Shown here one piece after another: positions 1,222 through 49,903 of a stretch of DNA of 64,000 bases (its first letter is position 1; each line of letters begins with the position of its first letter). The translations under genes were made by a program, and so were the position numbers. Where the stretch lies: contig JADLEX010000023.1 of assembly GCA_020845895.1 (NCBI GenBank), positions 1 to 64,000 on the forward strand, in the 5' to 3' direction. Below the pieces are notes generated by a model, which saw only the letters and a program-made list of their open reading frames with translations, was not told the origin of the DNA and ran no database searches. Source of the stretch: Deltaproteobacteria bacterium. Lineage in GTDB: Bacteria > Lernaellota > Lernaellaia > JACKCT01.

Positions 1222-1989
1222 TTACACCCCCGCTCCCCTTCGCTTCTCGCGGCGCAGAAACTCGGCGATCTCGGGCCCGATGCGCTCGGCCAGATCGCGC
1301 GGGTCCGCCGCGCCGCCCGCCGTGACGTTCACATGAAAGGTGAACGAATCGCCGCCGATCGTTTCGCCGCGATTGGCGCGCGCGAGGCTCTCCGGCCCGA
1401 TTCGCTCCACCGCGCGGCGGCGCATCACGAACTCGCCGCGCTGCGCGACGATCGGCACCTCGTCGAAACCGAGCGCGAGACCCGCGTGAGCGCGCACCGG
1501 ACCCCCGGCGTGCAGGACGGGGCCACCCGCGTGAATAAAGTTGAGCCATCCCGCGCCGCCGCCGGTGAGCGCCGTCATCAGCGTGCGCATCACCACCATC
1601 TGCGCGGTGATCGAGATCATCTGCTTCAGAACGGCGCGCAGCGAGGTCTGCCAATCGTGCGTGCCGTCCACGAGTTCATCGGCGAGGCCCCGCCCGATCG
1701 CGCCGATCGACGACGTGAACGCCTGGCGCGTCCAATCCGCCGCGCCCGAAGCGCGTCCGATCCACTCGCGAAACGTCTCCTCGGTCATGGCCCGCCGGCG
1801 CGCGTGGGCCGCGCGTTCAGCGACGTACAGCTCCATCTCCAACGCGCGGGCGCGCTCGGCGTTTTCGCGCGCGGCGTCGCCCAGCCCGCGCATCTCCTCG
1901 CGGCTTTGCGCGAGCGTTCGACGCAGTCGCTCGGCACTCTCGGCGGACTCATCGATGCTTGCGGTTTCGGGTTCGAGGATGAGGGGCAT
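1222..1989 (-). CDS. Short phage tail tape-measure-like protein
   Basis: The 255-aa product has a helical, coiled-coil-prone N-terminus (residues 1-100, rich in Glu, Arg and Ala), a hydrophobic middle (KQMISITAQMVVMRTLMTALTG, about 125-146) and a Gly/His-rich stretch with FIHAGG and HAGG motifs followed by FDEVPIVAQRGEFVMRR. That C-terminal pattern is typical of tape-measure C-termini in siphophages and gene transfer agents, which set tail length and pass through the tube. It is unusually short; at about 0.15 nm per residue it would specify a tail near 38 nm. The start has a strong Shine-Dalgarno CCGGAG (1996-2001) six bases upstream. It is the last gene of the minus-strand cluster, an odd place for a tape measure. 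Confidence 0.7.
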   Translation of the reverse strand: MPLILEPETASIDESAESAERLRRTLAQSREEMRGLGDAARENAERARALEMELYVAERAAHARRRAMTEETFREWIGRASGAADWTRQAFTSSIGAIGRGLADELVDGTHDWQTSLRAVLKQMISITAQMVVMRTLMTALTGGGAGWLNFIHAGGPVLHAGGPVRAHAGLALGFDEVPIVAQRGEFVMRRRAVERIGPESLARANRGETIGGDSFTFHVNVTAGGAADPRDLAERIGPEIAEFLRREKRRGAGV

Positions 1990-2109: not shown

Positions 2110-2807
2110 TCATTCCCCATTCTTCATTCGCAATTCTTCATTCTCCATTCCCGCCGCCTCCTCCATCGCCTGCGCCACCAGTTCCGGTTCGTCGGCTCGC
2201 AGCGCGAGGCCGAAGCGCAGCCGCGCGTGTCGGCGCAGCAGCGCGAGCGAGAGCGGAGTGACGAGCAGCATCGGGCAGCGGTCCACCACCTCCCCGGCGA
2301 CGACCGTGCGAAAACGCGGATTCGATCCCGGTGGGCAGTTGCGAAGCCGACGCAGCCGTGCGTCGCAGCCGTTGCAGTCCCACGCCGCCGACGTTACGAA
2401 GACGCCCGCGGCGAATCGGAGTTTTTTCTTTCCCCCTCCCGCAGCACCGACACGTCGCGGATCGCCGCGAGAATCTCCAGATAGAGCGGCGCGGCCGACG
2501 CCCCGGCGCGCTCCCGGGCCGCGGCGACCGCCGCGCCGTCGGCGATCTCCTCGCCGTCCGCGAAACGCAAGTGTTCGACCCGCGTCACGTGCCGCGTGAG
2601 CGTGTCGCGTACGGTGTCGGGCGCGAGCGCGAATCCGTCACCGTCGCGCGTCCACACCGAGGCGCGCTCGTACTCGGCTACCGTCATCGGCCGCAGATGG
2701 AACGCGCACGGCGCGTAGTCGCGGTTCTCGCACGCCCGCCGCCGCTCACCGCCGAACTCGGGGATGTAGGGAACGATCTGTTGCGGATTCACGCGTTCAA
2801 ATTCCAT
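2110..2807 (-). CDS. Tail assembly chaperone, long form made by -1 frameshift
   Basis: Reading the first 129 codons from 2807 and slipping back one base at A AAA AAC (2421-2427) continues translation to a TGA at 2110-2112, giving a 232-aa fusion. The downstream frame is open from above the slip site to 2110 and has no plausible start of its own. The extension adds a Cys pattern (WDCNGC, then RNCPPG, then VDRCP) and a helical region. Lambda gpG/gpGT and most siphophage tail chaperones are made this way, one gene before the tape measure, as here. The final 12 residues (MENEELRMKNGE) are encoded by an intergenic-type repeat, which supplies the stop codon. Confidence 0.7.
2111..2150. repeat. ATTCTTCATTC-type repeat at the end of the chaperone extension
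   Basis: The plus strand shows repeated CATTCTTCATTC/CAATTCTTCATTC units. Related sequence occurs at 2893-2980 (in both orientations, so hairpin-forming) and at 3755-3795. Each copy lies at or over the stop codon of a tail gene. Confidence 0.65.
2394..2807 (-). CDS. Tail assembly chaperone, short form
   Basis: The 137-aa zero-frame product begins MEFERVNPQQIVPYIPEFGG and has the charged, helical character of tail assembly chaperones (gpG type), which bind the tape measure during tail assembly. It ends at TAA 2394-2396, a few codons after the A-rich slip site. The start has a Shine-Dalgarno-like CCCGGAG eight or so bases upstream. It lies one gene before the tape measure, as expected. The assignment rests on position, size and the frameshift signal more than on sequence. 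Confidence 0.65.
   Translation of the reverse strand: MEFERVNPQQIVPYIPEFGGERRRACENRDYAPCAFHLRPMTVAEYERASVWTRDGDGFALAPDTVRDTLTRHVTRVEHLRFADGEEIADGAAVAAARERAGASAAPLYLEILAAIRDVSVLREGERKNSDSPRASS
2421..2440 (-). promoter_or_regulatory. Programmed -1 ribosomal frameshift signal
   Basis: The sense strand carries heptamer A AAA AAC (2427 to 2421) in the correct phase: the zero-frame codons are AGA AAA AAC. About seven bases upstream is the purine block GGGAGGGGGA (2440 to 2431), resembling an internal Shine-Dalgarno. The E. coli dnaX frameshift uses the same layout (an SD-like stimulator upstream of A AAA AAG). GC-rich sequence downstream could form a hairpin between CGCCG and CGGCG arms. Confidence 0.7.
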
Positions 2808-2892: not shown

Positions 2893-2980
2893 AAATGATG
2901 AATGGCGAATTGCGAATGGAGAACCTCAGCTTCTCTTGCTGCATTCTTCATTCCACATTCACCATTCTTCATTCTTCACC
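2893..2980. repeat. Inverted ATTCTTCATT-type repeat between two tail genes
   Basis: The left part (2893-2921) reads ATGATGAATGGCGAATTGCG and the right part (2942-2980) reads CATTCTTCATTCCACATTC, so the arms are roughly inverted copies. The right arm contains the TGA stop (2976-2978) of the 221-aa gene. It may act as an RNA hairpin or attenuator between the two genes. Confidence 0.55.
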
Positions 2981-3641
2981 CCGCGTCGTACTCGCAGCGC
3001 GGCGAGCACCAGAGCAGGAGTTGGAACGCCGCGCCGTGCGCCGCGCGCTCGTAGAGCATCAGGCGGCCCTCGTCATCCGAGCCCGCCGCGCCCACGTAGA
3101 ACGCCAGCTCGTAGTCGTGCTCGCCGTCGTTGTAGGTTCCCGTTTTCTGAAAGACGCGCGTGGACGATCCGTCGATCGGTCGCGCCACGCCGCCGCCCGT
3201 GTACCACGCGCCGAAGATCGGCTTGACGCTCCCGCCTTCGCTGCCCAGCAGGTTCGACTTGAGCAGACCCTCGCTCGAACCGCCGGGCAGCGCGTTCGCC
3301 GGATGATCGAGAAAGATGACCGATCCGCACACGGTGACGTAGCGGTTCGTGAATCCGCCCGCGGCCAGCATGCCGCCGTAATCGTCGCGGTCGGCGAGCA
3401 CGCGATACGATCCGTCCGACCCGGTCGGCGTCGAACCGACGACGTGGATCGTGAACCCGCCGTCGCGCTCCTGTTCCACCTGCGCGTCCGATCGCCCGCG
3501 CACGAAGTCGCACTTCACCGCGCGCAGGAATCGCTCGTTCTCCGTCACGCGCGTCGCGAAGCTCTGCCGCGTCGGCGTCCACAATCCGGGCGCGCTCTGC
3601 GCGACGAAGGCGTCGCCGTTGTTCGTGTTCCAGCTCGACAT
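2976..3641 (-). CDS. Virion or tail protein of unknown role in phage-like cluster
   Basis: This 221-aa protein has no family I recognise. It has no signal peptide or membrane segment, is Gly- and aromatic-rich, and looks like a mixed beta protein (for example GGFTIHVVGSTPTGSDGSYR and YVTVCGSVIFLDHP). The start at 3641 is supported by a CA-rich leader and a CCGGAG ribosome-binding site. It lies between the hub-like 573-aa protein and the tail chaperone, so a distal-tail, baseplate or fibre-accessory role is the natural inference. Its stop codon lies inside an intergenic-type repeat. Confidence 0.55.
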   Translation of the reverse strand: MSSWNTNNGDAFVAQSAPGLWTPTRQSFATRVTENERFLRAVKCDFVRGRSDAQVEQERDGGFTIHVVGSTPTGSDGSYRVLADRDDYGGMLAAGGFTNRYVTVCGSVIFLDHPANALPGGSSEGLLKSNLLGSEGGSVKPIFGAWYTGGGVARPIDGSSTRVFQKTGTYNDGEHDYELAFYVGAAGSDDEGRLMLYERAAHGAAFQLLLWCSPRCEYDAG

Positions 3642-3795
3642 GGTTGGGGCTCCGGAGAAGTCGTTGGTCTTTGGTTGTTGGTTTGCGGTCGACTTGTCCG
3701 CCGAAGCCTTGGCGAAGGCGGATGGTCGTTGGTCCTTGGTCAGACCCGCTCTCTCAACTCTTCATTCCACATTCTTCATTCACCATTCCTCACCG
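3642..3795. repeat. Composite spacer: CA-rich leader, CCGCC palindrome and ATTCTTC repeat
   Basis: This 148-bp spacer between two tail genes is built from repeats. In the sense (minus) direction it starts with an ATTCTTC-type element (3755-3795) that includes the upstream gene's TGA. Next comes a palindrome with arms CCGCCGAAGC/GGCGAAGGCGG (3699-3723), also found at 39768-39794. A CA-rich leader (3663-3687) and a CCGGAG ribosome-binding site follow, ending at the ATG at 3641. Confidence 0.65.
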
Positions 3796-5511
3796 CCCCC
3801 ACACCTTCAGCGCTTCGCCGTCGGGGTTTGCGTCGCCCGCGTCGGCCCAGAACGACAGCGCCGCGCGCTGAGCCGCCGACGCCTCGGCAAAGTCCGCGGG
3901 CATGACGCCGCCGCCGTGCGCCGTGGGCACGGGATCACCCGCGTCCGCGGACCACACGCCCGCGTCGGGCGCCTCGCCGCGCGCGACGAGGTCGAGTTCC
4001 ACGCTCACGGGCGGATCGAAGTCGATGCCGATCGCCGCGACCTGAAACACCCCCTCGCCCAGCGAGCCCGACACCGACACCGCATCGCCCAGGCGCGCCC
4101 CGAGCAGCGAGAAGTCGCACCGCGCGCGGACCGTGCGCAGCGACGCGAATCGCGCCTCGCGGTCGTAGAGCCACGCTCGGGCCGATTCGTCGTCGAAGAT
4201 CCAGTCGCTCTCGAGCGTCACCGGCGCCGCGGCCCCGCTCGCCACGCGGCGTGTGAACTGCCCGTCGTCCGGACGCCTGCGATAGCGCAGCGCGAGCGAC
4301 TCGCCGCCCAGTCGCCGGAGATCGTTCCACTCGCGAGCGTCGAGCAGCCGCGCGTCGTCGACGGTCGTCACGGGCGCGCTGCCCGCTCCGCCCGCCGGCA
4401 CGAGCGTGTAGAGACCGCGCCGCACGAACAGGCACAGGCCGAAGTCCGCGCCGATGCGACCGATCGCGTCCATCACCGTCGTCTCGCCGTCGATCAGCGC
4501 GCGGCAGCGGTATCCCCACGCGTCAGCCCACGCCCGCGCCGAATCAAACGACGCCACGTCGAGCGCGTCCGCCGAAAGGCTCAGGCCGTTCACGGGATCG
4601 GTCAGTAGGTGGCGGATCACGCCCACCGGCGATTCGATCAGCCGTCCGTTTTCGTCCCGCTCGCCGCGCGGACGCGCGACGCGGATCTCGTCGCCGGACT
4701 CGAAGCGCACCTCCATGCGCTCGAATTCGGAGCCGACGAGTTCGAAGGTCCCCGCCGCCGCGTCCACCACGCCGATCTCGAAGTCGCGGTAACCCGTCTC
4801 GTCGCGCTTCGGTCGGGCCGACGAATCGGTCCAGGTCGCCCGCGCGCCGAAGCTCGCGATGCCGTAGTGGCCAGGGCGGCACAGCCGAGCGCGCAGCGGG
4901 CGGTCCGTCGCATAGGGCTGCGTGTCCACGCACGCCGCCTCGATCCAGTAGTCCGACTGCTCCGCGCCGAAATCGCCGAACAGCACCGGCACCGCGCGGC
5001 CCGACCAACGCGGATCGGTCTTCGCGTCGTCGCCATACGCGAGCGCGGGGATGCGCCGATTGTCGCGCTCGACGCGGTCGCGCGCCGAGATCGCCACCGT
5101 GTACGGCCCGATCTCCACGTCGCCGCGCTCGATCATTCCCTCGTGCACGAGCGTATCCGCCGACGGCACGCCGCGGGCCGACAGGGCGAGGTAAAGTCGC
5201 ACACTCCGCCCAACGAAATACTCCGCCGCGCGGATCGTCGCGACGTCGGCGTCGGTGAGGGCCTCCGCCCCGCGCGCCAGCTCGATGCGCACCGCCGGCG
5301 AAACCACCACGCCGCCCGTGCCCAGCTCGTGACGCAGTCCCCGTACCGAGGCGATGCCCGGCCACACGCCGTCGTGACGCGGGTAAGGCGCGCCGACGAC
5401 GGAGTGCGTGCGATGTGCAAGGGCGAATCGCCACTCGCGGCCGTCGCGCGGGTCGGACTCGATTTCGATGAGCAGGTTGTAGCCGCGCAATGCGGAAGCG
5501 GTCGTCGTCAT
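3790..5511 (-). CDS. Baseplate hub-like tail protein
   Basis: The 573-aa protein starts at ATG 5511, four bases after the stop of the preceding 1154-aa gene, so the two are translationally coupled. Its central part (SFDSARAWADAWGYR..., then IGRIGADFGLCLFVRRGLYTL, about residues 335-385) resembles tail hub proteins of the gpD/late-control or tail-protein superfamilies, in which a conserved fold forms the ring between tube and spike. An N-terminal region (about 10-140) reads like a beta-rich tail attachment domain. No peptidase or lysozyme motif was seen. It is probably part of the tail tip; the exact family is uncertain. Confidence 0.55.
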   Translation of the reverse strand: MTTTASALRGYNLLIEIESDPRDGREWRFALAHRTHSVVGAPYPRHDGVWPGIASVRGLRHELGTGGVVVSPAVRIELARGAEALTDADVATIRAAEYFVGRSVRLYLALSARGVPSADTLVHEGMIERGDVEIGPYTVAISARDRVERDNRRIPALAYGDDAKTDPRWSGRAVPVLFGDFGAEQSDYWIEAACVDTQPYATDRPLRARLCRPGHYGIASFGARATWTDSSARPKRDETGYRDFEIGVVDAAAGTFELVGSEFERMEVRFESGDEIRVARPRGERDENGRLIESPVGVIRHLLTDPVNGLSLSADALDVASFDSARAWADAWGYRCRALIDGETTVMDAIGRIGADFGLCLFVRRGLYTLVPAGGAGSAPVTTVDDARLLDAREWNDLRRLGGESLALRYRRRPDDGQFTRRVASGAAAPVTLESDWIFDDESARAWLYDREARFASLRTVRARCDFSLLGARLGDAVSVSGSLGEGVFQVAAIGIDFDPPVSVELDLVARGEAPDAGVWSADAGDPVPTAHGGGVMPADFAEASAAQRAALSFWADAGDANPDGEALKVWGR

Positions 5512-5515
5512 CGCC

Positions 5516-8500
5516 TCACCCCACCGATTCATCGATCGCGAGGCGCACGTCGGCGTGATTCCACCCGCTGCCCTCGCGGCGCAGTGACGCGCCGAGGTAT
5601 CCATAGATCACGTCGCGCGCCGGGTCGTCGGCCTCGCCGCTCGCGTGCGGCGCGTCGGTGCCCTGCGAGAGACGCGTGGGATCGAGCACAACCAGCACGG
5701 GCTTCACCTGCCGGTGCCGCCGCCAGATTGTCTCGAAGGGCTGCGTTTCGTCCGGCGTGAGATCGGCGAAGACGAGATCGACGCGGCGATACGACGCGAG
5801 ATCGACCGCGCGCCGCGCCTGGCCGAGCGTCGCGGTCGTCGGCGACGGGTCGGTCCACGCCACGCCGATGCGCTGCGAATAGTTGTGCGAGGGCGTGAAG
5901 CACATCGTTGCCTCGTTCAGAATCACGCGGCCGATGGTCCACGGCGTGTCCTGCCGCGCGGGGTCCGCGTCGAAACGCGCCTCCGTGCGCACGCGCCACC
6001 AGCGACGCGACACGCCCGGCCGATGCGCGACCAAGGGCCGCGTCGCCACGCCGGAGAGATCGACCGAAAAGAGGCTCGCTCCGGAAAAGCTCGAATCGTC
6101 GCACGCCGCGAGCCGCACGCTCATATCGCGCAGTCCCGAGAGCGAGGAGATGTCGGCGAAGTTGTGGCCGAGCAGCGCGACCAGGTCGATATTGCGCGCG
6201 AGGATGAGATCGAAGACGAGCTCCGCGCGGTAAAGAATGCCGTCCGGCATGACGAGCCGGTCGCCGAGCCCGTCGCTCTTCCACGCCGTACCCAAGTCAT
6301 TCGCGCGCACGTTCGACACGGGAAATCCCGCCGCCGCGCTGTTCGTGAAGACGCGCCCGCGATCGCCCGTGAACGCGAAGGGGCCCTCGTCGCCGTGGGC
6401 GATCATGACGCGGGCGACGGCGCCGTCGGCCGCGGCGAGCGCCGTCCCCGCGACGAGCACGATGGACGCGCCGACGGACGCCGAGGTCTCGCCCGACACA
6501 TGGCGAACGCGCGCGTGCACCGTCTTGAGACCCGCGCCCGCCGTCAGAAGATGCGCGAACGCGGCGCTCGCCGCACCCGCCGGCCAGTCGCGCCAGGGCG
6601 ATGCGTGCTCGGCCTCGCCGTCGTTCCACACCCGCGCCTGCCACACCGCGCCGTCCACGTCGCCGGCCTGTGCACCGCTCGACGCCGCGACCGTCACGTG
6701 CACGCCGCGCGCCGTCGCCACCGCGCCCCCCTCGTCGATCGCGATCGCCGTCACCTCCGGCGCGCCGCGATACTCCACCCGGTCGCCGTAAAGCGTCTGC
6801 GCCGCCAGCAACCCCGCGTTGCCCGCCTCGTCGTGAAAAACCCAGCGGTATTCGTGGCGACCCGGCGCGGCCTGCGTGTCCTGAATGATCGTGTACGCGT
6901 CGGCAGGCTCGCCGTCAGGCGCGGGAAACGCCACGTCGAGCGAATGATCCCACGCGCCGTCCGTCACCGTCTCCCAGCCGTCCGCGCGAAGCCGCTGCCA
7001 CGCGCCGCCTTCGATGCGCCGTTCGATGTGCGCGTGCAGGTAATCCGCGGGAATCGGCTGCGGCGAGCGAGCGCCCGTGCGCACCACCGCGCGCGTATCG
7101 TGCGTCGATTCGGCCCACGCGTTCGCGCCGAGCGGGGCGGCGAAGTCGGGCGTGATCTGCCCCGCGCCGCCGCCGTCGGCGTGTCCCGCGTAGCCGTATC
7201 CGTAGCCCCACGCGTCGCCGTAGAGCGGATCGGCATCCGACCGGCATCCGTAAATGAAGGAAGAGCCCCGCCAGTCGACGCACCACACGGGCGCATCCAC
7301 CAGCGGCTGCGCGTGATCCCACGCGGTCGTGTACGAGCGCATCGGAAGCACGTTGATGTCGTGCGCAATGTCCGACGTGTCGATTTGCCGCGCGCCCGTG
7401 GAGCCGCCGACGACGATGGACGCTCGATTGTCGGATACCGCGACGCACCGGATCGCCTGCATGGCGTCGATAACCGGAATCGCCGCGCCGCTCGTCGCCG
7501 TGCCGACCGTGTTCGACACCACCGACTCGCGTGCGAGCGCGCCGTCATACGCGCCGTGATCGAGACGCACCACCTGCACTTTCGCATTCACGTCGCCGAA
7601 GACGAGGGCGAAGGCGCGCGGATCGCTCCCCGACACGCTCCGGGCGCTCACGGCCGCGGCGGTGATGTCCTCGGCGAGAAGCCCGGCATGGTAGAGCGGC
7701 GACGTGCGGCGCACGCGGTAGTGCGCACTGCTCGTGTCGCGCGCGCGGAAGTGCTCGAAGCGCCCGCGCAGAAACTCACTCGCGGCGACGCACGTGTTCG
7801 TCGCCGACAGCGCGGGCAGCAGCGACGTGTCGTCACCGTCCGGATCGATATGCGTACGAATCGTACTCCACGACACGGGGTCATCCGCATCGTTCGACGC
7901 GCTGATACGGATCTTCACGTCGTCGCCGTCGCGATAGCGATCGACGGCGATCCAGGGATACGTCGCGTACGTCGTCGCGTCGTGCGCGTACACGAGCGCG
8001 CCGCCATGCCACACCTCCATGCGGTTTGCCACGCCCGACGCCGTGCGCCGTCGCACGTGCAGGTATTGCGTCGCTCCGCCGAGCGTGACGAGGCCGACGA
8101 TGACCTCGGTGTACTCGTCGCCCACGGGCGCGGGCTCCTCGTCGATCGCGTATTTCGCGCGCACGCCGATGTCGCCGGGGCACGATTGCAGAAAGTACGC
8201 AGCCGCTTCGCGCAAAGGGCCGCTGTTTGAAAGCGCGAATTCGAGCCCGTTGTTTTGCGCGAGCGTCGCGCCCGGCGTGAGGTCGAGCATCCAGCTGCGT
8301 CCGTCGATGGCGTCGCCGGCGAAGTCGTCGGCGATCGCGCCGACCGAGGCGTCGGGCACGAAGACGTCGCCCGCGACCGCGTGCGGGTTGTGGATGGCGT
8401 GCACGCGCGACCCGATGGCGTAGTACAGCGTGTTGTCGTGATCGCCGGCGGGAAAGAACCCGACGCGCGAGTTCGGGCCGAATTCCAGCGCTCGCAAATC

Positions 8501-8980
8501 CCCGTCCGGCAGCGCGCGAAACCACAACGTCGCCGTGTTTCCATCGTCGCCCGTCCACCCGAGAACGCGGTGCGCCCCGCCGTCGTAAGTGCAGCCGTGA
8601 ACGTCGGCAAAGGTCGCGCCCACATCGGCCTCGATTTCGGGCGCCCAATCCGCGGGCGTCGCGTCCGCGCCGCCCGACATCGCCGTCCACGCAACACGAT
8701 AGATTTTCGCCGGATCGGAATTCGAGATCGCGTACAGGTCGTCACCGCAGCGCGCGACCTTCGCGAATCCTCCCGCGAGCCGCGCGAATCCATGCGGCGC
8801 GTTCGTGTCGAGCCGGATGACGACGAGGTCCGCGTTCGTCGCGAACGCTCCGTAACGCGCGCCGTCCGCCCCCATCCAATGCACGACCGCGTTCACGTAC
8901 TCCGACCCGACGAGAAATTCGTCGGCGTCCCACTCGAGGTCGGCGTGAACGAGATAGCCCTTGCTGTACACGAAACCCAT
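5516..8980 (-). CDS. Giant tail fibre or receptor-binding-like protein
   Basis: At 1154 aa this is the largest protein of the cluster. Residues about 1-200 contain repeated beta blades (YGAFATNADLVVIRL, GDDLYAISNSDPAKIYRV). Residues about 205-375 look like a concanavalin/LamG-type carbohydrate-binding domain opening with DDFAGDAIDGRSW. Residues about 600-820 contain Ig/fibronectin-like segments (HEYRWVFHDEAGNAG). The C-terminal 250 residues hold a discoidin-like jelly roll (VSNVRANDLGTAWKSD, LVFDLILARNIDLVALLGHN) often seen in phage tail proteins. Together these suggest adhesion to surface sugars. It has no signal peptide, as expected for a virion protein. It is preceded by the XhlA-like gene, 16 bp away. 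Confidence 0.6.
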   Translation of the reverse strand: MGFVYSKGYLVHADLEWDADEFLVGSEYVNAVVHWMGADGARYGAFATNADLVVIRLDTNAPHGFARLAGGFAKVARCGDDLYAISNSDPAKIYRVAWTAMSGGADATPADWAPEIEADVGATFADVHGCTYDGGAHRVLGWTGDDGNTATLWFRALPDGDLRALEFGPNSRVGFFPAGDHDNTLYYAIGSRVHAIHNPHAVAGDVFVPDASVGAIADDFAGDAIDGRSWMLDLTPGATLAQNNGLEFALSNSGPLREAAAYFLQSCPGDIGVRAKYAIDEEPAPVGDEYTEVIVGLVTLGGATQYLHVRRRTASGVANRMEVWHGGALVYAHDATTYATYPWIAVDRYRDGDDVKIRISASNDADDPVSWSTIRTHIDPDGDDTSLLPALSATNTCVAASEFLRGRFEHFRARDTSSAHYRVRRTSPLYHAGLLAEDITAAAVSARSVSGSDPRAFALVFGDVNAKVQVVRLDHGAYDGALARESVVSNTVGTATSGAAIPVIDAMQAIRCVAVSDNRASIVVGGSTGARQIDTSDIAHDINVLPMRSYTTAWDHAQPLVDAPVWCVDWRGSSFIYGCRSDADPLYGDAWGYGYGYAGHADGGGAGQITPDFAAPLGANAWAESTHDTRAVVRTGARSPQPIPADYLHAHIERRIEGGAWQRLRADGWETVTDGAWDHSLDVAFPAPDGEPADAYTIIQDTQAAPGRHEYRWVFHDEAGNAGLLAAQTLYGDRVEYRGAPEVTAIAIDEGGAVATARGVHVTVAASSGAQAGDVDGAVWQARVWNDGEAEHASPWRDWPAGAASAAFAHLLTAGAGLKTVHARVRHVSGETSASVGASIVLVAGTALAAADGAVARVMIAHGDEGPFAFTGDRGRVFTNSAAAGFPVSNVRANDLGTAWKSDGLGDRLVMPDGILYRAELVFDLILARNIDLVALLGHNFADISSLSGLRDMSVRLAACDDSSFSGASLFSVDLSGVATRPLVAHRPGVSRRWWRVRTEARFDADPARQDTPWTIGRVILNEATMCFTPSHNYSQRIGVAWTDPSPTTATLGQARRAVDLASYRRVDLVFADLTPDETQPFETIWRRHRQVKPVLVVLDPTRLSQGTDAPHASGEADDPARDVIYGYLGASLRREGSGWNHADVRLAIDESVG

Positions 8981-8996: not shown

Positions 8997-9257
8997 TCAG
9001 CGCAGCGCGGCGATGACGAGGCTCACCGCGAGGGACAGCGCCGCGCCGCCCAGCGCGCCCATCGCCCACCGGCGCGCGTGCTTGAGTTCACTCACGGCTT
9101 CCTCGGCGCGGGCGAGGCGCTCGGCGAAATGGTTGTGCGTGTCGATGCGCCGCTCGATGCGTTCGAGGCGCTCCGTCAGTTCGACGCGCAGTCGGCCGAC
9201 GGCCTCCTCGATGGCGCGATGGAGCAGTTCGTAGAGCTGTGCGTTGCCTTCCGTCAT
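8997..9257 (-). CDS. XhlA/holin-like coiled-coil membrane protein
   Basis: This 86-aa protein has a charged helical N-terminus with heptad character (LHRAIEEAVGRLRVELTERL, about residues 10-60) and one C-terminal membrane helix (about 66-85, WAMGALGGAALSLAVSLVIA). That layout matches XhlA-type lysis-associated proteins and small phage membrane proteins. It starts at ATG 9257, nine bases after the tail-tube gene ends. It is the only candidate lysis-related gene in the cluster; no endolysin was found. It could instead be a membrane anchor or tail accessory protein. Confidence 0.55.
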   Translation of the reverse strand: MTEGNAQLYELLHRAIEEAVGRLRVELTERLERIERRIDTHNHFAERLARAEEAVSELKHARRWAMGALGGAALSLAVSLVIAALR

Positions 9258-9265
9258 CGGTCGCC

Positions 9266-10588
9266 TCACGCGAAGATCAGCCGGATTTCGTCGTCGCCCG
9301 CGTCCTCGAGACACGGGCCCGACAGCTCCATCGGCACCTCGCGGCCCGCCTCGCTCGCGATCTCGGGGATGCGCGGCGCGAAACGCGGCGCATGGAAGGC
9401 GAAGGTCGCCCCCGGCGCGTTGCCCGCCTGCACCAGCACCTCGATCGGCGCGAACGCCCTGATCCGCCCGCGTAGCCCGGCGGTTTCGGGCGTGAAATAT
9501 CCCGCGAGCGTGAGCGTCGTTTGCCGCCGCGCGGGGTGCGTGAAGCCGCTGGGGCCGGGCGTGCCGAAGCACTCGCGCATACGCACGCCCTCCTCGATGC
9601 GCAGCTTCGCCTCGGTGATCTCGAAGGGCGCGCCGCCGACCAGCACGCGCCCCGCGATGCCGGCCACGGGCACGCCGGTGACGGTCGCGCTGTCCGGCCG
9701 CGCGGGATCGATGCGGGTGCCCGCCGGATGCGGTGAAGGTGTCGTGCCCGCGTAACCGCGCGTCACGCGCAGTTCGTTTCCCCCGAGCGCCACGTCGTTC
9801 ACGCGCACGCACTCGCCCTGAATCGCCAGCACCGCGCCGGGGTCGAAGCGGCCCGCGTCGGCGACGGCGATGGTCGTCTGCGCGTCGGTGATATCCGCGC
9901 CGAGCGCGTCGATCGCCGCCGCGTGTTCGTCCGCGCCGAAGCCCTCGAAGCGCCAGCGCGCCTCGTTTCCCGCGCTCAGCGAAATCTCCACGAGCCGCCC
10001 CACGCACCCCGGGTACGCGAAGGCGAGGCCGTCGAGGAATCGGCGGATCGTCATCGACGACGCGGGCCGCGCGGCGGGGCGATACGCCGTCGCGCCACGT
10101 ACGCTGTCGCCCACCACGGGCGCGGCGGGCAGCGCCGGCGTCCACGCGATCGATCCGCCCGCCGCGTCGGTCACGACGCGCACGTGGTAGTCGTCCCCCT
10201 GCGTGAACCCCACCGCGTCGCCCACCTGCGCGACCTGCTGCGCAACGGTGCACGACGTCGCCGTGGGCGCGGCCGCCACCGTGGTCGTGCCGGAGGCCGA
10301 CGAGGAGAGTGCGTGCGCGGCCAGCAACGCGTGCGCCGCGCCGGGGCCGGTCTCGCCGGGCATCAGGTAGCCCTCGATCTCGTATTCGAGCGAACGGCGG
10401 CGCGTGACCTGATCGGCCGTGCCGCGCCCCGCATGGCGCTCGTCGCGGGCCGCGCGCTCGTGCGTGAGGGTGAAGGCCGCGCGGGTGTGCGCGATCGCCT
10501 CGTCCGCGTCCGCGTCGGGCGCGATGCCGTAAGACGACTCGGCGGTGACGTAGAGCTGCTCGAAGAGAGGATTCGGGTAGTGCGTCAT
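9266..10588 (-). CDS. Major tail (tube) protein-like
   Basis: This 440-aa protein starts at ATG 10588 (MTHYPNPLFEQLYVTAESSYG), after an AAAAGG ribosome-binding site. The opening, position and content match siphophage tail tube proteins, which begin with a description of a tube monomer followed by beta-rich Ig-like insertions. Residues about 225-330 contain a repeated module (DAQTTIAVADAGRFDPGAVL, then GECVRVNDVALGGNELRVTR) typical of phage Ig-like or adhesive insertions, which explains the length. It follows the tail terminator gene as expected. Its self-assembling role is family knowledge and is not shown by the sequence. Confidence 0.6.
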   Translation of the reverse strand: MTHYPNPLFEQLYVTAESSYGIAPDADADEAIAHTRAAFTLTHERAARDERHAGRGTADQVTRRRSLEYEIEGYLMPGETGPGAAHALLAAHALSSSASGTTTVAAAPTATSCTVAQQVAQVGDAVGFTQGDDYHVRVVTDAAGGSIAWTPALPAAPVVGDSVRGATAYRPAARPASSMTIRRFLDGLAFAYPGCVGRLVEISLSAGNEARWRFEGFGADEHAAAIDALGADITDAQTTIAVADAGRFDPGAVLAIQGECVRVNDVALGGNELRVTRGYAGTTPSPHPAGTRIDPARPDSATVTGVPVAGIAGRVLVGGAPFEITEAKLRIEEGVRMRECFGTPGPSGFTHPARRQTTLTLAGYFTPETAGLRGRIRAFAPIEVLVQAGNAPGATFAFHAPRFAPRIPEIASEAGREVPMELSGPCLEDAGDDEIRLIFA

Positions 10589-10625: not shown

Positions 10626-11057
10626 TCAAACCGTTTCGTGCCAGACGATGTCGAAAAGCGCCGCCGCGCGCAGGCCCGATTCGCCGAAGGTCGATTCCGC
10701 CGTGCGTTCGACCGCTTCGGTGAGCGCGGCGCGCGCGCCCCGCGTGGGATCGGCGAGCAGGGCGCGGTCGATGTCGCCGAGCAGGGCTTCCATCGCGGCT
10801 CGCGCCATCGCCGCGTCCGCCCCGCGCACGTGCGCGGTGACGCGCAATCGCATCGCGCATCGCCTTCGCCGCGCGGGCATCGACGACGTGCGCACGCGCT
10901 CGACCTGCGCGACGAGGGACGGGTAGCGCGGTAAGAGCCCCGGCGGAACGGGCCCGGTGCGCACGAGTTCGACGTCCGTGCCGAATCCGTTCGCACGCGA
11001 AATCGCTCCGAGCGCGGCGAGGGCGTCGCCGAAAATGCTTTGCGCGAGCGTGCTCAT
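10626..11057 (-). CDS. Tail terminator/completion-like protein
   Basis: A 143-aa protein starting at ATG 11057 (MSTLAQSIFGDALAALGAIS). The size, the position between head-tail connector and tail tube, and the ending AAALFDIVWHETV resemble tail terminator proteins (lambda gpU, minor tail protein Z family), which cap the tube and join it to the head. A basic segment SSMPARRRRCAMRLRVTAH (about residues 59-77) leads into a beta strand. No catalytic motif. The product is inferred chiefly from gene order. Confidence 0.5.
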   Translation of the reverse strand: MSTLAQSIFGDALAALGAISRANGFGTDVELVRTGPVPPGLLPRYPSLVAQVERVRTSSMPARRRRCAMRLRVTAHVRGADAAMARAAMEALLGDIDRALLADPTRGARAALTEAVERTAESTFGESGLRAAALFDIVWHETV

Positions 11058-11091: not shown

Positions 11092-11811
11092 TCAGGCCCG
11101 TCCCGATTCGACCGACCGCGCGACGCGCAGCAGACCCCCGCGACGCAGCAGCCGCCGCGCGGCGAAACACAGCTCGGCGAGCGGCGAAACGGCGCGCGTG
11201 CGAAATCCGCCCGCGCCCGGGCCGCCGACGTCGAGCGATTCGATCCCCGCCGCGGCGGCCGCGATGGCGGCGGACTGCGGCGACACGGCGAGTTGGATCG
11301 CCTGCTCGCACGCGGCTTCGAGCACTCCGCGCGGCAGCGGCGCGACGAGAACGAAGACCTCGTCGGCGGCGACATCGGGCTCGGCGGAAAGCTCGAGCGC
11401 GCCGGTGTCGGAATCGAAGTCGTCAATGCGAAACAGCCCGGCCCGGTCGAAGCGCGCCGCCCCGCCGACGAATTCCGCACGGTCGCGACCGACGAGGTTC
11501 TCGCTGCGCACCGTCGCTCCGTCCACCTCGCTCGCGCGGGCGAACTCGACCGGGTGTCCGATGATGGGGACGCCGATCGCCTGGCGCGGCCAGCCCATGC
11601 CGTGCGAGAGCGCATCGGCGACGAGCGGGGCGCGGCCGATCGTCCGCGACGCGGCGGCGAGATACCGCTCACGTCGCGCGTTGCCCGTCTCGCCCTCGCC
11701 CAGGTCGGTCCACGCGGTCGCATCGGGGTGCCGCGCGAGATACACATCCGCGAACGCGAGATCGACGATGCTCTCGGCGGCGGGATCGCACAGGGTGGTG
11801 TTGAGGGCCAT
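11092..11811 (-). CDS. Head-tail connector/adaptor protein
   Basis: This 239-aa protein starts at ATG 11811 (MALNTTLCDPAAESIVDLAF) after AGGACGAGG; an upstream in-frame ATG at 11850 was rejected for lack of a ribosome-binding site. Its N-terminal half (TYLARHPDATAWTDLGEGE..., RRERYLAAASRTIGRAP) resembles the DnaT-like/gp6-like adaptor family whose members start by describing an alpha-helical bundle under the portal. The middle (EFARASEVDGATVRSENLVG, FDSDTGALELSAEPDVAADEVFVLV) is beta-rich. It follows the coat gene and precedes the tail terminator, the canonical adaptor slot. Confidence 0.6.
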   Translation of the reverse strand: MALNTTLCDPAAESIVDLAFADVYLARHPDATAWTDLGEGETGNARRERYLAAASRTIGRAPLVADALSHGMGWPRQAIGVPIIGHPVEFARASEVDGATVRSENLVGRDRAEFVGGAARFDRAGLFRIDDFDSDTGALELSAEPDVAADEVFVLVAPLPRGVLEAACEQAIQLAVSPQSAAIAAAAAGIESLDVGGPGAGGFRTRAVSPLAELCFAARRLLRRGGLLRVARSVESGRA

Positions 11812-11905
11812 GCGCCTCGTCCTCATGGGTTCGGGGTTCGCCGGGGGCAAAGCCGCCCCCGGACTTCATTCATGGATGCGGATGGATTCGCGTCGCGCGC
11901 GCCGG

Positions 11906-12769
11906 TCACTGGCTCCAGACGTCGACGATCAGGTCGTCGTTCAGCATCGCGTAGCCGTAGATGACATCGACGGTGACGAGGGTGCCGAGGTACTCCGGCA
12001 CGTAGCTCGCCTGCACGCGCGGCCCGAGCTGGATGGCGAGGGCGATGGCGTGGCGCTGGAACATGACGCTGTGAAACGTCTCGATGCCGCTCTGGGTGCT
12101 GCTCGAAATGTTGTTCGACAAGTGCACGCGGCAGCCGAGGATGTCGCCGACGAGGCCCGTCGCCATCGGCGCGTTGGGGTCGCCCGGAGAAAGGTAATCG
12201 CGGTTCGTGAAGCCCGGCAGCGCCAGCAGCCGCGCCTTCAGGTCGGGGCCGACGACCAGGAAGCGGTCCTCGACCGGCGCGTCGGCGCTGTCGAGGTAGC
12301 GCATCGCGGCGACCAGAGCCTGGCCGACCTCCTCGTCGTCGCCGATGGCCGAAACCTGGCGCGCGGCGAGGGCGTGGAGGCCCAGCAGGTGCGTGTCGAT
12401 CGCGCGGGCGATCGCGTGGCCGGCCTTTTTCGTGTAGATCTCGCGCAGGCTGCTCTTCGCCTGCACCGCCACGATGTCCTCGATCAGGAAGCTGACTTCC
12501 TTGTGGTTCGCGAGCGGGATGCTGACCTTGTCCTCGGTGGTGGACTGGGGCGTGACCTGCGCGTTGGGGGCTTTGGTCTGCGCGGCGAAGTTCGACACGC
12601 GCGGCACGTGGATGACGTCGCCGCCGTCCGCCGCCACGTCGTCGAAACGCGCGACCAGATCGGCCATGACGAGGTTCTTTTCCGCGGCCTCGAGCACGTC
12701 GAGGGCCCACAGTTCGGGGATGAAATTCGCGGCGGTCGTGGTGGTCACGTGGGCGTTTCCGAGGGCCAT
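11906..12769 (-). CDS. Major capsid (coat) protein, P22 coat-like
   Basis: The 287-aa protein starts MALGNAHVTTTTAANFIPEL and contains ALDVLEAAEKNLVMADLVAR, then VIHVPRVSNFAAQTK and DKVSIPLANHKEVSFLIED. This opening is characteristic of the P22 coat protein/HK97-fold capsid group. The E-loop, A-domain and P-domain order follows from length. A separate scaffolding gene precedes it and no head protease is present, consistent with a P22-like assembly route. The start at 12769 has an AAGGAGT ribosome-binding site (12774-12780) and a CA-rich leader. Its identification anchors the whole cluster as capsid-forming. Confidence 0.8.
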   Translation of the reverse strand: MALGNAHVTTTTAANFIPELWALDVLEAAEKNLVMADLVARFDDVAADGGDVIHVPRVSNFAAQTKAPNAQVTPQSTTEDKVSIPLANHKEVSFLIEDIVAVQAKSSLREIYTKKAGHAIARAIDTHLLGLHALAARQVSAIGDDEEVGQALVAAMRYLDSADAPVEDRFLVVGPDLKARLLALPGFTNRDYLSPGDPNAPMATGLVGDILGCRVHLSNNISSSTQSGIETFHSVMFQRHAIALAIQLGPRVQASYVPEYLGTLVTVDVIYGYAMLNDDLIVDVWSQ

Positions 12770-12904: not shown

Positions 12905-13477
12905 CTATCCTTCTCCCCGCGCGGCGCTCTCCAGTTCCGCGCGGCGGCGGCGCAGCTCGACGAGCGTCGTCATCCGGGGCGCGGGCGCGGGGGAGGGGGA
13001 GCCCGCGGACCCCGCGCCGCCGGACGACGCGCTTTTCGCCAGATTCGGATTCTCGGTCAGGAACGCGCGCACGGCCTCGGCGAAACGCGTTTCGTCGTAA
13101 CGCGCCGGGCCGGTCGGTCCCGCGAGCGCGAGTTCGGGCGACGTGCCCTCGCCGGGCCACTCGACGCGCGGCGCGAGCAGCGACACCACCTGGTCGGGGC
13201 GGTACGCGCCGCACTCGGCGGCGGCGTCGGACAGGAGCTGGCGCGAACGCGTGTCGCGGTAGCGGCGCTCCCATTCCTTCGCCGTCGCCAGCAGCCGGTC
13301 GCGCTCGACGCCCAACGCCTCGGCGCGCCGCGCCTGCTCGTGCGCCGCGCGCTCGGTCTCGTCCATGCGGCTCGTCTCGACGCGGGTGACGGCTTCGTCA
13401 ATTTGCGAAGACAGACGCTCGATGGCGGCGTTCACGTCGGCCGCGAGTTTGGTGAGGGGATCGTTCGGGTCATCCAT
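12905..13477 (-). CDS. Scaffolding-like protein
   Basis: This 190-aa protein starts MDDPNDPLTKLAADVNAAIE at ATG 13477. It is strongly helical and charged through residues 10-85 (coiled-coil heptads, ERRYRDTRSRQLL), followed by RYDETRFAEAVRAFLTENP, a Ser/Gly/Pro linker and a short basic C-terminal helix (VELRRRRAELESAARG). A helical body with a small basic tail between portal and coat is the signature of phage scaffolding proteins, whose C-terminal helix binds coat subunits. No protease motif was seen. A longer upstream reading in the same frame is rejected because it overlaps the portal gene. Confidence 0.65.
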   Translation of the reverse strand: MDDPNDPLTKLAADVNAAIERLSSQIDEAVTRVETSRMDETERAAHEQARRAEALGVERDRLLATAKEWERRYRDTRSRQLLSDAAAECGAYRPDQVVSLLAPRVEWPGEGTSPELALAGPTGPARYDETRFAEAVRAFLTENPNLAKSASSGGAGSAGSPSPAPAPRMTTLVELRRRRAELESAARGEG

Positions 13478-13500: not shown

Positions 13501-14871
13501 TCACGATTCGATTTGGTCGCCCGTCGCGACCTCGCGCAGTACCTCGGCGCGCTGATCGCCGGGCAGTTCGCGCAGCACCGCGCGGGCGAGGCGCTCCAGC
13601 ACACGACGGCGAAAGACCGGCCCGACGCCGAGTGCGAGGGTGCGTTCGCTCTCGTCCAGCAGCGCCAGCGGTTCGCTGACGCCGAAATCGCCGGGGAAGC
13701 GGATGCGAGCGTTCCAGTCGGGCGCGGCGATCGCCAGCGCGCGCTCGAAGGCCCGCGCGACATTGTCCGCCGCGTCGGCGAGCGCGTGGTTGGTGTCGAG
13801 AAAATCGAAGGCCTTGCTGATGCCGCTTTGCACGCGGCCTTCGCGGGCGCTGCCGCGCGACAGGCTCGCGAGCCGGTAGACCTCGTCGATGAGCCCGTCG
13901 ATGCGGCGCATCAGCAGATCGGCCTGCGCGGCGTCTGGGCTGATGTATTCGGGCGCGCGGTGGCCCTCGGGGTAGAGGAAGATCGAGCTGGTGCCGAGCC
14001 GCGCGATGTCGCCGTTTTCGCCGTACTCCGCGGCGCTGCCCTCGGCGACGAGTTGCGAAAACGTCTGACGGTACAGGATCTCGCCGAGCAGCGACCCGAG
14101 GTTGAAGATCTCGCGGTTCACGTGGACGATCGACGCGAGCAGGCTCTCGCCCACCACGGGATCGTCGCCCTCGCGGAATCGGCACGACACGAAGGGCACG
14201 CGCCCGAAGGGATGGTCGCCCTCGTCCACGCACTCCCCCGTCTCGTCGATCAGGGTCCATCCGTTCGCGGTCCACAGGCGATAGCGCGTGCGTTCGACGT
14301 CCGTCGGCGTGCCCGCCGAAGCCTGGGAGACGTCGCGCCGCCGTTCGCGCACGAGCGCCCATTCGAGCCCGCCCGCGCCGCCCGCGTTCCAGTTCAGAAA
14401 GTCGCCGGGCAGCACGAGATACAGATAGCTGCGCAGGCCGAGCGCGAGCTCGTCGGCGACGGTCGCGGGGCGCGCGTCGGTGCGCGGGCGATCGACGCCG
14501 ATCACCACGTGGCCGTAAACCGCGGCGAGGGTCAGCGCGCGCTTCATGACGTCGACGAGGCCGTGGCCGCGCCCGTCGGCGTCGGCGAGCAGCGCGGGCG
14601 CGCCGGCCTCGGGAAGGATGGTCGGGCCGACACGGAAGATCGACGCGACGTAGGTGTCCACGACCGGGCGGCAGTAGTTGAGGTGGAACGCGCGGGCGAG
14701 GCGTCGCCGGTGGTCGGCGGCGTTTTCGAGCCGATGGGAAAAAAGATTGGACGCCGTCAGGTAGTCGGCGCCTCCCTGGAAACTCTGCCAGGCGAGACGC
14801 CAGAAGGCGCGGCGCGATTCGTGATGGGGATGGCGGGATTCGATCAGATCCCTGAACGGCGTCCGCGTCAT
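13501..14871 (-). CDS. Portal protein
   Basis: The 456-aa protein starts at ATG 14871 (MTRTPFRDLIESRHPHHESR) with an AAGGAG ribosome-binding site ten bases upstream. It contains RRLARAFHLNYCRPVVDTYV, LVDVMKRALTLAAVYGHVVI and ISPDAAQADLLMRRIDGLID, the pattern of SPP1/P22-type phage portal proteins, with clip, wing and long stem helices in the usual order. Portals form the 12-fold ring through which DNA is packaged with terminase. It is the first structural gene; no terminase precedes it, which is where one normally lies. The large terminase is instead at 48650. Confidence 0.75.
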   Translation of the reverse strand: MTRTPFRDLIESRHPHHESRRAFWRLAWQSFQGGADYLTASNLFSHRLENAADHRRRLARAFHLNYCRPVVDTYVASIFRVGPTILPEAGAPALLADADGRGHGLVDVMKRALTLAAVYGHVVIGVDRPRTDARPATVADELALGLRSYLYLVLPGDFLNWNAGGAGGLEWALVRERRRDVSQASAGTPTDVERTRYRLWTANGWTLIDETGECVDEGDHPFGRVPFVSCRFREGDDPVVGESLLASIVHVNREIFNLGSLLGEILYRQTFSQLVAEGSAAEYGENGDIARLGTSSIFLYPEGHRAPEYISPDAAQADLLMRRIDGLIDEVYRLASLSRGSAREGRVQSGISKAFDFLDTNHALADAADNVARAFERALAIAAPDWNARIRFPGDFGVSEPLALLDESERTLALGVGPVFRRRVLERLARAVLRELPGDQRAEVLREVATGDQIES

Positions 14872-15304
14872 CGGCCCGTGCTCCTTTTCTTCGGCCGGAT
14901 CGATGGGCCCGGCATCCCGGACCCTCGACCCGCCGTCGCCCGCGAAGGGCTGTATTTTTCTTCGTCGAAACCGTTTTCGCCCGCTCGTGTTTTTCGCGCT
15001 GTCGCTTTTCGCGCTGTCGATGTTTTCCTCACCCTTCGCGTGGCGAACGGGTGTTTTGCGCGTCACGATGCGTCAGCGGGTGGGAATGGGCGCGAGTTGT
15101 CGCGCGGCGGCGCGAGTCGGCACGGGATGGGCCGAAGCCCTCACCCCCGGCCCCTCTCCCGCCGGGCGGGAGAGGGGTGGCGAGCGCAGCGAGACGGGGT
15201 GAGGGATGAAATCGGAGACATGCGGTGCGAAGTGCTGCATGTCCACGGTCGCGGCTCCGTCGCGCCCGGCCCGCCGCGCGACATCCTCATATCGACGAAG
15301 CGCT
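14872..15304. other. Intergenic region upstream of the portal gene
   Basis: This 433-bp stretch carries no convincing gene. It contains the third CCCTCACCCC palindromic repeat (15137-15206), a short direct repeat of TTTTCGCGCTGTCG (about 14997-15020) and A/T-richer sequence around 14950-15060 that could hold the promoter of the particle cluster. No clear -35/-10 pair could be assigned. Confidence 0.4.
15137..15206. repeat. Palindromic CCCTCACCCC...GGGGTGAGGG repeat, copy 3
   Basis: Same element type as at 2038-2107, including the GGGTGGCGAGCG spacer, with arms GCCCTCACCCCC and GGGGTGAGGG and an inner CCCTCTCCC/GGGAGAGGGG stem. It lies between the lipoprotein gene end and the portal gene start. 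Confidence 0.75.
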
Positions 15305-34021: not shown

Positions 34022-34699
34022 ATGAGCGGACCGAAGAACGAAGGGTTTATCGGGCGACTCTCGGAGCTCATCGAGGAACTCGGCGGCGGCCACTACTCGC
34101 GCTTCGCCCGAATCGTCGGCACGGGCGCCACGACCATCGACAACTACATGCGCGGCAAGAGCGTGCCGGGTCTGAACATGATCGTGGACATCTGCCGGCA
34201 GTGCGGTGTGACGCCCAACTGGCTGATTTTCGGATGGTCGCCGAAATTCGGCGCGGCCTCCCGCCCGATGCCCGAGTCGATCCGGCTCGTGCACGCGGGA
34301 GAGGCGGGCGTCGTGTCGAGCGACGACTTCCAGACCGTGCCCATCCTCAAACCCGATGCCTGGCGAGATCCCGCGTGCTTTCGCGTCTGCGCGGAGACGA
34401 TGGAAGGGTTCACGGTTTCGCATGCCAAGCCCGGCTCGCGCCTCGCCGCGATCCGCATGCCCGACGACGCAATGGGCGACGAGGTCGCGCGCGGCGACCT
34501 GATCGTCTTCGACATGGAGAGCCGCGAAGCGGCCGCGATCGAAGGACACCTCGTCGCCGTGAAGTTCGACGATGCGGTCACCGTGCGTCGCGTAATGGAC
34601 GAGCGATTTCTGGCGAACGACGTGCGCCGCCACGCGCCGCAAAAGGCGATGCGTAGGCAGATCCTCGGCGCGGTCGTGGAGGTTCGCAAAAGCGTGTGA
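34022..34699 (+). CDS. CI-like repressor with degenerate S24 peptidase domain
   Basis: The 225-aa protein starts at ATG 34022 after CGGAGGA. Residues about 8-72 form a CI-type DNA-binding domain (HYSRFARIVGTGATTIDNYM, then GVTPNWLIFG). Residues about 120-215 follow the LexA/CI S24 pattern (RGDLIVFD, HLVAVKFDD, VTVRRV). The nucleophile position, normally Ser in a DSM motif, is Ala150 (PDDAMGDE), and the general-base Lys is Arg189. Self-cleavage should be impossible, so classical SOS induction is not expected. It sits 200 bp after comM. It may regulate the dispersed phage-like genes; that is inference. Confidence 0.75.
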   Translation: MSGPKNEGFIGRLSELIEELGGGHYSRFARIVGTGATTIDNYMRGKSVPGLNMIVDICRQCGVTPNWLIFGWSPKFGAASRPMPESIRLVHAGEAGVVSSDDFQTVPILKPDAWRDPACFRVCAETMEGFTVSHAKPGSRLAAIRMPDDAMGDEVARGDLIVFDMESREAAAIEGHLVAVKFDDAVTVRRVMDERFLANDVRRHAPQKAMRRQILGAVVEVRKSV

Positions 34700-41610: not shown

Positions 41611-41620
41611 GGAGGCGGCG

Positions 41621-48649: not shown

Positions 48650-49903
48650 GTGCTCCACCTCTTCGCAAACTACCACCCCCACGACGGCCAAAAGCGGCTG
48701 CACCGCGCGGGCACGCGCTTCGTCGCGCTGTGCGCCGGGGTGCGTTCGGGCAAGACGTACGGCGCGGCGCGCGAGTTCCTGCGACGCGTATACGCCGACC
48801 GTTGGGCCAAGTCGGGATCGCTGCTCTACTGGGCCGTCGCGCCCACGCACGATCTGGGCGAGGTGCAGTGGCGCGAGGTGATGAGCGCGCTCGCGGGTCC
48901 GGTCGCCGTGATCGTGCGCAACGTCCACCGCACCGACCGGCGCATCGAGCTGGCGGGGGACATCTCCGTCGAGTTCAAGAGCGCGCACGTGCCCGAGCGG
49001 CTCGTGGGCGTCGGCCTCGACGGATTGTGGATCGACGAGGCCGCCCGCGTGGATGAGCGCGCGTGGACCGGGCAACTGCGCATGCGACTGTCGGACCGGC
49101 TCGGCTGGGGACTTTTTTCGACCACGCCGCTCTCGCGCAACTGGTTCTTTCGCGAGATCTGGCGGCGCGGCGATCCGGGCGACGCACTGGCGTTACCCGA
49201 CTACGGCCGCGCGCATTTCACCACCGCGGAAAACACCGCGCTGCCGCACCTGGCCGCCGAGGTCGAGCGCGCTCGCCGCGAATTGCCCGCGCGGTATTTC
49301 GAGCGCGAGTATCTCGCGTCGTTCGATGCCTTCATCGGCCAAGTCTTCGAGGGCTTCGATCGCCGCGCGCACGTGTTTGCGGACGCCGACGCGCCGTCGC
49401 GGTTCGACGAGGTGCGCGTAGGCGTGGACTGGGGATTCCGAAACCCCGGCGCGATGATCGTGGTCGCCCGCGACGGCGACGGGTGCTGGTGGACGCTCGA
49501 CGAGCGCTACGAACGCGGCTTGCCAGTGGTAGGGGATGGACGCACGTGGGTTGCGATCGCGCGTGAACTCGCCGAGCGGTGGCGCCCGTCGGCCTTCGCG
49601 TGCGATCCCGCGCGGCCGGAGTACATCCGCGCGCTGCGCGGCGCGGGATTGCCGGCGCGCGCCGCGAAAAACGACGTGGCCTCGGGCATCGCGCGCATCT
49701 GCACGCTGCTGCACCCCGATCGCCCCGGCGGGCCGCTGCTGCGCGTGCACGCGGGGTGCGTTCAGCTTCTGTCGGAAATCCCGCAATACCGGTGGCGCGA
49801 CGACGATGGTGCGCGTGAAGAGCCCGTGAAGCAGGACGACCATGCGATCGACGCGTGGCGCTATGCCCTCGTGACCGACCCGCACAAGCCGGGTTTCTGG
49901 TGA
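48650..49903 (+). CDS. Phage terminase large subunit
   Basis: The 417-aa protein has the complete packaging-motor pattern: Walker A AGVRSGKT (29-36), Walker B GLWIDEA (125-131, Asp129-Glu130), coupling motif STTP (157-160), and an RNase H-fold nuclease with VGVDWGFRNPG (Asp260), FACDPARPEY (Asp319) and KQDDHAIDAW (Asp396/397/401). It translocates DNA through a portal into a procapsid and cuts it. It is intact, yet no other structural gene adjoins; the nearest are 34 kb away on the other strand. The start is a GTG at 48650 without a Shine-Dalgarno. The stop is followed after 100 bp by a glycosidase gene. Confidence 0.9.
   Translation: MLHLFANYHPHDGQKRLHRAGTRFVALCAGVRSGKTYGAAREFLRRVYADRWAKSGSLLYWAVAPTHDLGEVQWREVMSALAGPVAVIVRNVHRTDRRIELAGDISVEFKSAHVPERLVGVGLDGLWIDEAARVDERAWTGQLRMRLSDRLGWGLFSTTPLSRNWFFREIWRRGDPGDALALPDYGRAHFTTAENTALPHLAAEVERARRELPARYFEREYLASFDAFIGQVFEGFDRRAHVFADADAPSRFDEVRVGVDWGFRNPGAMIVVARDGDGCWWTLDERYERGLPVVGDGRTWVAIARELAERWRPSAFACDPARPEYIRALRGAGLPARAAKNDVASGIARICTLLHPDRPGGPLLRVHAGCVQLLSEIPQYRWRDDDGAREEPVKQDDHAIDAWRYALVTDPHKPGFW

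Follow-up and report, generated by a model that had tools for sequence, protein, structure and literature searches.

The tail assembly chaperone (TAC) gene of a phage-derived element in Candidatus Lernaellota carries a complete -1 frameshift signal, and the frame entered by the slip encodes a domain with four cysteines (Cys4), which is kept within the phylum, in genomes outside it and in phages. The whole is best explained, in our reading very probably, by a frameshifted chaperone with a minor Cys4-T form that would act inside a long-kept, possibly GTA-like element. The gene lies in a window of 64 kb, by which we mean the whole stretch of DNA that was analysed. The host phylum is Candidatus Lernaellota, which corresponds to FEN-1099 in GTDB (PMC13248872, PMC11382960); the tie from the isolate name to the phylum name is one that we infer. 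Frameshifting of this kind is already known; what is new is the family of Cys4 extensions and the setting in which it occurs, and searches of open-licence papers brought up no description of a zinc-binding or Cys-rich tail chaperone extension.

The TAC open reading frame is located on the minus strand at 2807-2394 and its zero-frame product comprises 137 aa. The slippery heptamer A AAA AAC stands at 2427-2421 (minus strand), and the initial annotation was right to place it in the phase of a -1 slip (X XXY YYZ), the zero-frame codons being AGA AAA AAC. The SD-like stretch that had been pointed out upstream is GGGAGGGGGA at 2440-2431, in which 7 nt separate the end of GGGAGG from the slip, and the short zero-frame tail that was described past the slip consists of 8 codons (SDSPRASS). 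The -1 frame is indeed start-less and open for 103 codons (2110..2421, minus strand), beginning with the C of the heptamer and running to a TGA at 2112-2110; going upstream from the slip, this frame meets its stop after 73 codons and has no start codon on the way, and the earliest start codon within the extension is a GTG at 2289, 44 codons in. Re-reading of the sequence gave the same coordinates and the same length of 232 aa for the fusion product. Overlooked at that stage was a strong RNA hairpin at 2413-2383 with a main stem of 11 bp, which starts 8 nt 3' of the heptamer (spacer 7 nt) and which is predicted to fold, together with its flanks, at -23.2 kcal/mol (z -2.45). SD-like stretch, A-rich heptamer and downstream hairpin are thereby present in a tail chaperone of the lambda G/GT kind, in agreement with the dnaX or lambda G-GT design that had been proposed. 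Eleven AAAAAAC heptamers occur on the two strands of the window, and only one of them, the one at 2427-2421 in the TAC gene, joins a long zero-frame ORF on its upstream side (144 codons) with a long -1 frame on its downstream side (103 codons).

The TAC protein of this genome has no direct match in Pfam or PHROG, and its homologues match phrog_344 weakly. The fold of the zero-frame part as predicted by AF2 (pLDDT 79.2) matches annotated TACs with a probability of 0.82-0.95 and E 0.03-0.06, which gives moderate support to the assignment. The extension ends in ~13 residues (..ENEELRMKNGE) that derive from an interspersed spacer repeat: ATTCTTCATTC-type repeats occupy the gaps between element genes at 1989-2160, 2807-2990 and 3641-3790 and supply the last ~13 codons, so that the end of the extension in this genome is probably not ancestral. 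Since, moreover, the zero-frame tail extends over 8 codons and the extension ends inside the repeat, this copy of the gene could be drifting. The terminase gene of genome G001 (L178) seems to have an in-frame insertion of sequence resembling these repeats.

The fusion protein, used as a query against 193 genomes, had homologues in 5 further ones, all from the same class as the genome under study. The chaperone is present in 6 of the 7 genomes that make up the phylum sample, compared with 5 of 379 other genomes (1.3%; p 7e-10). Among the phylum members the fusion can be aligned over its whole length, with CxxC, RNC and CP invariant; the junction reads A AAA AAC in all six, a TGA follows immediately in four, and downstream RNA structures are predicted in each (z -1.8 to -3.6). 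The initial annotation had asked whether homologues conserve the -1 frame, and slip site and -1 frame alike are kept in 6/6 homologues of the phylum as well as in phages. The dN/dS value between the copy in the window and that of G001 is near saturation and was not relied on. Profile searches over 386 genomes, which did not require a slip site, provide an unbiased set of 12 places in 11 genomes, including matches in 5 genomes outside the phylum. An in-phase slip site occurs at 12/12 of these places, namely A AAA AAC at 10, A AAA AAA at one and a run of ten A at another, the homologue of G032. A CxxC with further Cys is found in 11 of the 12, the exception being G262 with an extension that has no Cys. 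Genome G233, from outside the phylum, holds two diverged frameshifted chaperone copies (L165, L172) with an extension richer in Cys.

In IMG/VR, a pattern scan for the slip heptamer together with the Cys motif returned at least 120 contigs; scans with single chaperone proteins had given no matches there because the family is too diverged, an obstacle that the motif pattern overcame. The Cys motif lies in the -1 frame in at least 97 contigs and in the zero frame in none among the matches listed. As heptamer and Cys motif were both part of the retrieval pattern, their conservation in these 97 contigs is circular, and the unbiased set remains that of the 12 places. Among the matches listed, the zero frame ends directly past the slip in 42 of 65 dereplicated phage contigs, and an ORF of tape measure size (200 codons or more) starts right behind the extension in 82 of the 86 phage loci with room for it. 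The same layout is seen in an isolated phage, Agrobacterium phage JP1 (PQ741606.1), in which JP1_031 and JP1_032, annotated as two hypothetical proteins, stand ahead of the tape measure gene. As judged from these contigs, the extension domain is common to a large, undescribed phage group.

The phage members also carry traces of selection on the signal itself. In 73 dereplicated members among the matches listed, GAG is used for the Glu codon at position -4 from the slip in 33 of 41 cases (55% elsewhere; p 0.002) and GAA for that at position -2 in 35 of 46 (p 5e-5), and predicted anti-SD pairing exceeds that of synonymous shuffles at -16 to -7 nt (z -5.5) and is weaker closer to the slip. These codon statistics indicate that the SD-like spacing is under synonymous selection in the phage family. 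RNA folding rises above dinucleotide shuffles only just downstream of the slip, with a mean z of -2.38 there as against -0.37 and -0.05 for the control windows. In an ungapped subfamily of 30 sequences, a stem of 13 bp is paired in 86% of cells (26-45% when slid) and covaries, with 27 double-changed cells vs. 11 after shuffling (0/500), and its 3' arm contains the first Cys codon; ungapped consensus folding of the C15 and C20 subfamilies found no common structure. For the extension in the -1 frame, the median dN/dS is 0.14 over 111 pairs, which are not independent of each other, and there is a third-position excess. Measured in this way, the -1 frame is under purifying selection.

The four Cys listed for the extension in the initial annotation are present in the order given there: Cys16 and Cys19 form a CxxC (2365..2376), an RNC extends from Arg27 to Cys29 (2335..2343) and Cys49 is followed by Pro50 (2272..2277), all on the minus strand. 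Their description as unusual for such extensions did not hold, the four Cys being instead family-defining, as they occur in 64/64 aligned extensions, where the motif was in the retrieval pattern, and a CxxC with further Cys occurs at 11/12 places where it was not required. In the alignment of 64 extensions from among the matches listed, L1, C16, C19, R27, C29, C49 and P50 are invariant, an invariance imposed by the inclusion of these residues in the search pattern; independent evidence comes from the phylum alignment and the set of 12 places. On these alignments, CxxC-x7-RxC...CP defines the extension family. The AF2 model of the extension (pLDDT 86.8) is mainly helical with one short hairpin and had no match below E 1 in PDB or BFVD, and no fitting family was found for the extension in Pfam, NCBIfam or PHROG. 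Matches to TMEM106_N and Nudix, each obtained with one member, were dismissed, and a retroviral zinc-knuckle in a PDB profile search (E 0.11) was at chance level and left unused.

In the window the TAC gene directly precedes the gene of a short tape measure protein of 255 aa (1222..1989; PF09718 1.2e-5; phrog_24 3.6e-13) and shares the minus strand with it and with a series of further element genes. These encode an element protein of 221 aa (2976..3641; conserved in G001, 64%), an element tail protein of 573 aa from the ATG used (3790..5511; homologues in the clusters of G001, G003 and G005), a protein of 1154 aa whose size and place suggest a large fibre or host-contact protein (5516..8980; homologues in 5 relatives), a holin-like protein of 86 aa (8997..9257; phrog_689 3.5e-6), the tail tube protein (9266..10588; PF18906 2.5e-14), a tail terminator-like protein of 143 aa (10626..11057; phrog_4204 0.0022, a weak match), a probable head-tail protein of 252 aa (11092..11850; homologues in G001 and G006), the major capsid protein (11906..12769; phrog_267 4.7e-43), a scaffold-like protein of 190 aa (12905..13477; homologues ahead of the capsid gene in G001 and G006) and the portal protein (13501..15066; phrog_145 2e-58). 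The terminase large subunit (TerL) of the element is encoded on the opposite, plus strand at 48650..49903 (phrog_2 3.9e-46), 34 kb from the portal gene. An XRE/LexA-like regulator lies at 34046-34594, 19 kb from the portal gene, and regulators of the same family adjoin the cluster in two genomes (L016 6552-7070; L015 15664-16335), which makes this family a candidate regulator of the element. An ATPase-like protein (SbcC/ABC-like) encoded at 41588-42715 on the plus strand is related to several phage families that have no assigned function.

Across the phylum, TerL, capsid and portal genes are single copy in each genome having them, the clusters comprise ~14-16 kb, and neither an integrase nor replication genes were noticed in them. 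Gene order is scrambled among the genomes and the ORFs are intact: the order is TAC, TerL, capsid, tape measure, portal, tube, fibre in G005, where the TAC gene thus precedes the terminase gene, and TerL, capsid, portal, tube, tape measure, TAC, fibre in G004. Tube, TAC and tape measure genes follow each other in G003 and G006, and the tube gene is several genes upstream of the TAC gene in the window and in G001. The tape measures are short (255-310 aa); in G006, C-terminal tape measure pieces occur four times in tandem with small unrelated ORFs between them (L014 4597-11410). In the TerL tree the phylum forms one clade (95/97) with the family of the genome under study separate (99/95), and the closest full-length viral TerL is ~32% identical; the fibre tree agrees with it in following the host families. 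The capsid and portal trees are discordant with the host families, and as the capsid and portal of G006 fall with the other family, some exchange of head genes has occurred. The head module of G003 is another one, and G002, the phylum genome without the chaperone, keeps a disrupted TerL alone. This terminase is split across two frames (L224 9803-11054), possibly by decay or by an assembly error.

With 65% GC, the window is rich in long spurious ORFs, and it might be supposed that the heptamer arose by chance and that the -1 frame is no more than a shadow ORF such as GC-rich sequence produces; this was rejected on the conservation of the -1 frame and the selection on it, as the frame forms a conserved domain in phages and other phyla, its stimulators are selected and the junction is kept at 12/12 unbiased places, which leaves chance a practically negligible explanation. 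Transcriptional slippage on the run of six A, in place of ribosomal frameshifting, is very improbable as the source of the fusion: polymerase slippage is plausible on the A10 run of the G032 homologue, but elsewhere six A are followed by C, and the in-phase site, the SD-like spacing and the covarying hairpin are ribosomal features. The frameshift is about as certain as comparative sequence allows. For the Cys4 motif, a disulfide or redox element or another structural role must be weighed against a zinc site, given that the motif is known as a sequence pattern, that the AF2 model resembles no solved structure and that the G262 homologue dispenses with Cys altogether. However, structural zinc sites usually show just such a CxxC together with two more invariant Cys, and conditions in the bacterial cytoplasm are reducing; we consider a role other than zinc binding rather unlikely and take the extension to be probably zinc-binding.

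With regard to the element as a whole, the cluster might be an ordinary or decaying prophage with a normal siphovirus frameshift, its phylum-wide presence reflecting frequent infection by related temperate phages. The exchange of head genes between lineages, the deviating head module of G003, the lone terminase remnant of G002, the holin-like gene and the frequency of the same TAC design in free phage contigs all agree with a prophage, which we regard as a possibility of somewhat less than even weight. It is harder to reconcile with single copies in nearly all genomes of the phylum as against the 1.3% elsewhere, with compact clusters lacking a noticed integrase or replication gene, with TerL and fibre trees that match the host families at such a distance from viral TerL, with ORFs that stayed intact despite the scrambled order and the remote terminase, and with tape measures of such small size. 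A GTA fits this distribution and is a tentative reading. Stated in full, it would be a short-tailed, phylum-wide and vertically inherited GTA that forms a lineage of its own apart from those known, with frameshift-dependent assembly and a zinc-binding T domain from a large, undescribed family shared with free phages, which we put forward as a possibility that likewise has somewhat less than even weight.

For the frameshifted chaperone in a long-kept element we propose the following course of events. The gene would encode a siphovirus-type tail assembly chaperone on which the majority of ribosomes terminate soon after A AAA AAC, releasing the 137-aa, G-like form. The upstream SD-like contact and the downstream hairpin would hold a presumed minority of ribosomes, which slip by -1 and complete the 232-aa, GT-like fusion. 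The added domain would carry a small Cys4 site and, by analogy with lambda gpT, this T domain may connect tail tube subunits with the tape measure that the chaperone coats. The set of portal, capsid, tube, short tape measure, fibre and distant terminase genes appears to have been retained by Candidatus Lernaellota through family-level divergence, and most economically it would serve a short-tailed siphovirus particle that is GTA-like or was domesticated in some other way, and that may be produced and package DNA.

The G/GT frameshift has a widespread branch with Cys4 extensions that current family libraries miss, so that in annotation the second product is split off or lost, phage JP1 being an example. 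A good comparative case of stimulated -1 frameshifting in tail genes is offered by the selected SD-like spacing together with the covarying hairpin, and a candidate GTA-like element over a whole uncultured phylum is a testable claim on gene exchange there.

The lambda gpG/gpGT chaperones and the conserved G-T frameshift of siphoviruses, as reviewed in PMC5009743 (citing Xu, Hendrix and Duda, 2004), are the nearest known design: one gene gives two products through a -1 slip near its end, the -1 frame is start-less and the gene stands directly ahead of the tape measure gene. Unlike lambda, the gene described here has the heptamer A AAA AAC between an SD-like and a hairpin stimulator, the Cys4 domain that forms its extension belongs to a family which Pfam, NCBIfam and PHROG do not contain, and the Lernaellota element has a scrambled gene order. 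With Escherichia coli dnaX it shares an internal SD-like sequence, an A-rich heptamer and a downstream hairpin in the same order, whereas the heptamer ends in C here and in G in dnaX, and the slip lengthens the protein here and shortens it in dnaX. Agrobacterium phage JP1 shares the chaperone design, including the heptamer A AAA AAC and a CxxC-x7-RxC...CP extension, with the pair between the tube and tape measure genes; in contrast to the element, it is a phage of 97 kb with a long tape measure, and its pair is annotated as unrelated hypotheticals. Like GTAs such as RcGTA, the element is a compact, single-copy structural set that is kept by a host lineage, with a short tape measure and without integrase or replication genes that were noticed; unlike RcGTA, it belongs to a different phylum.
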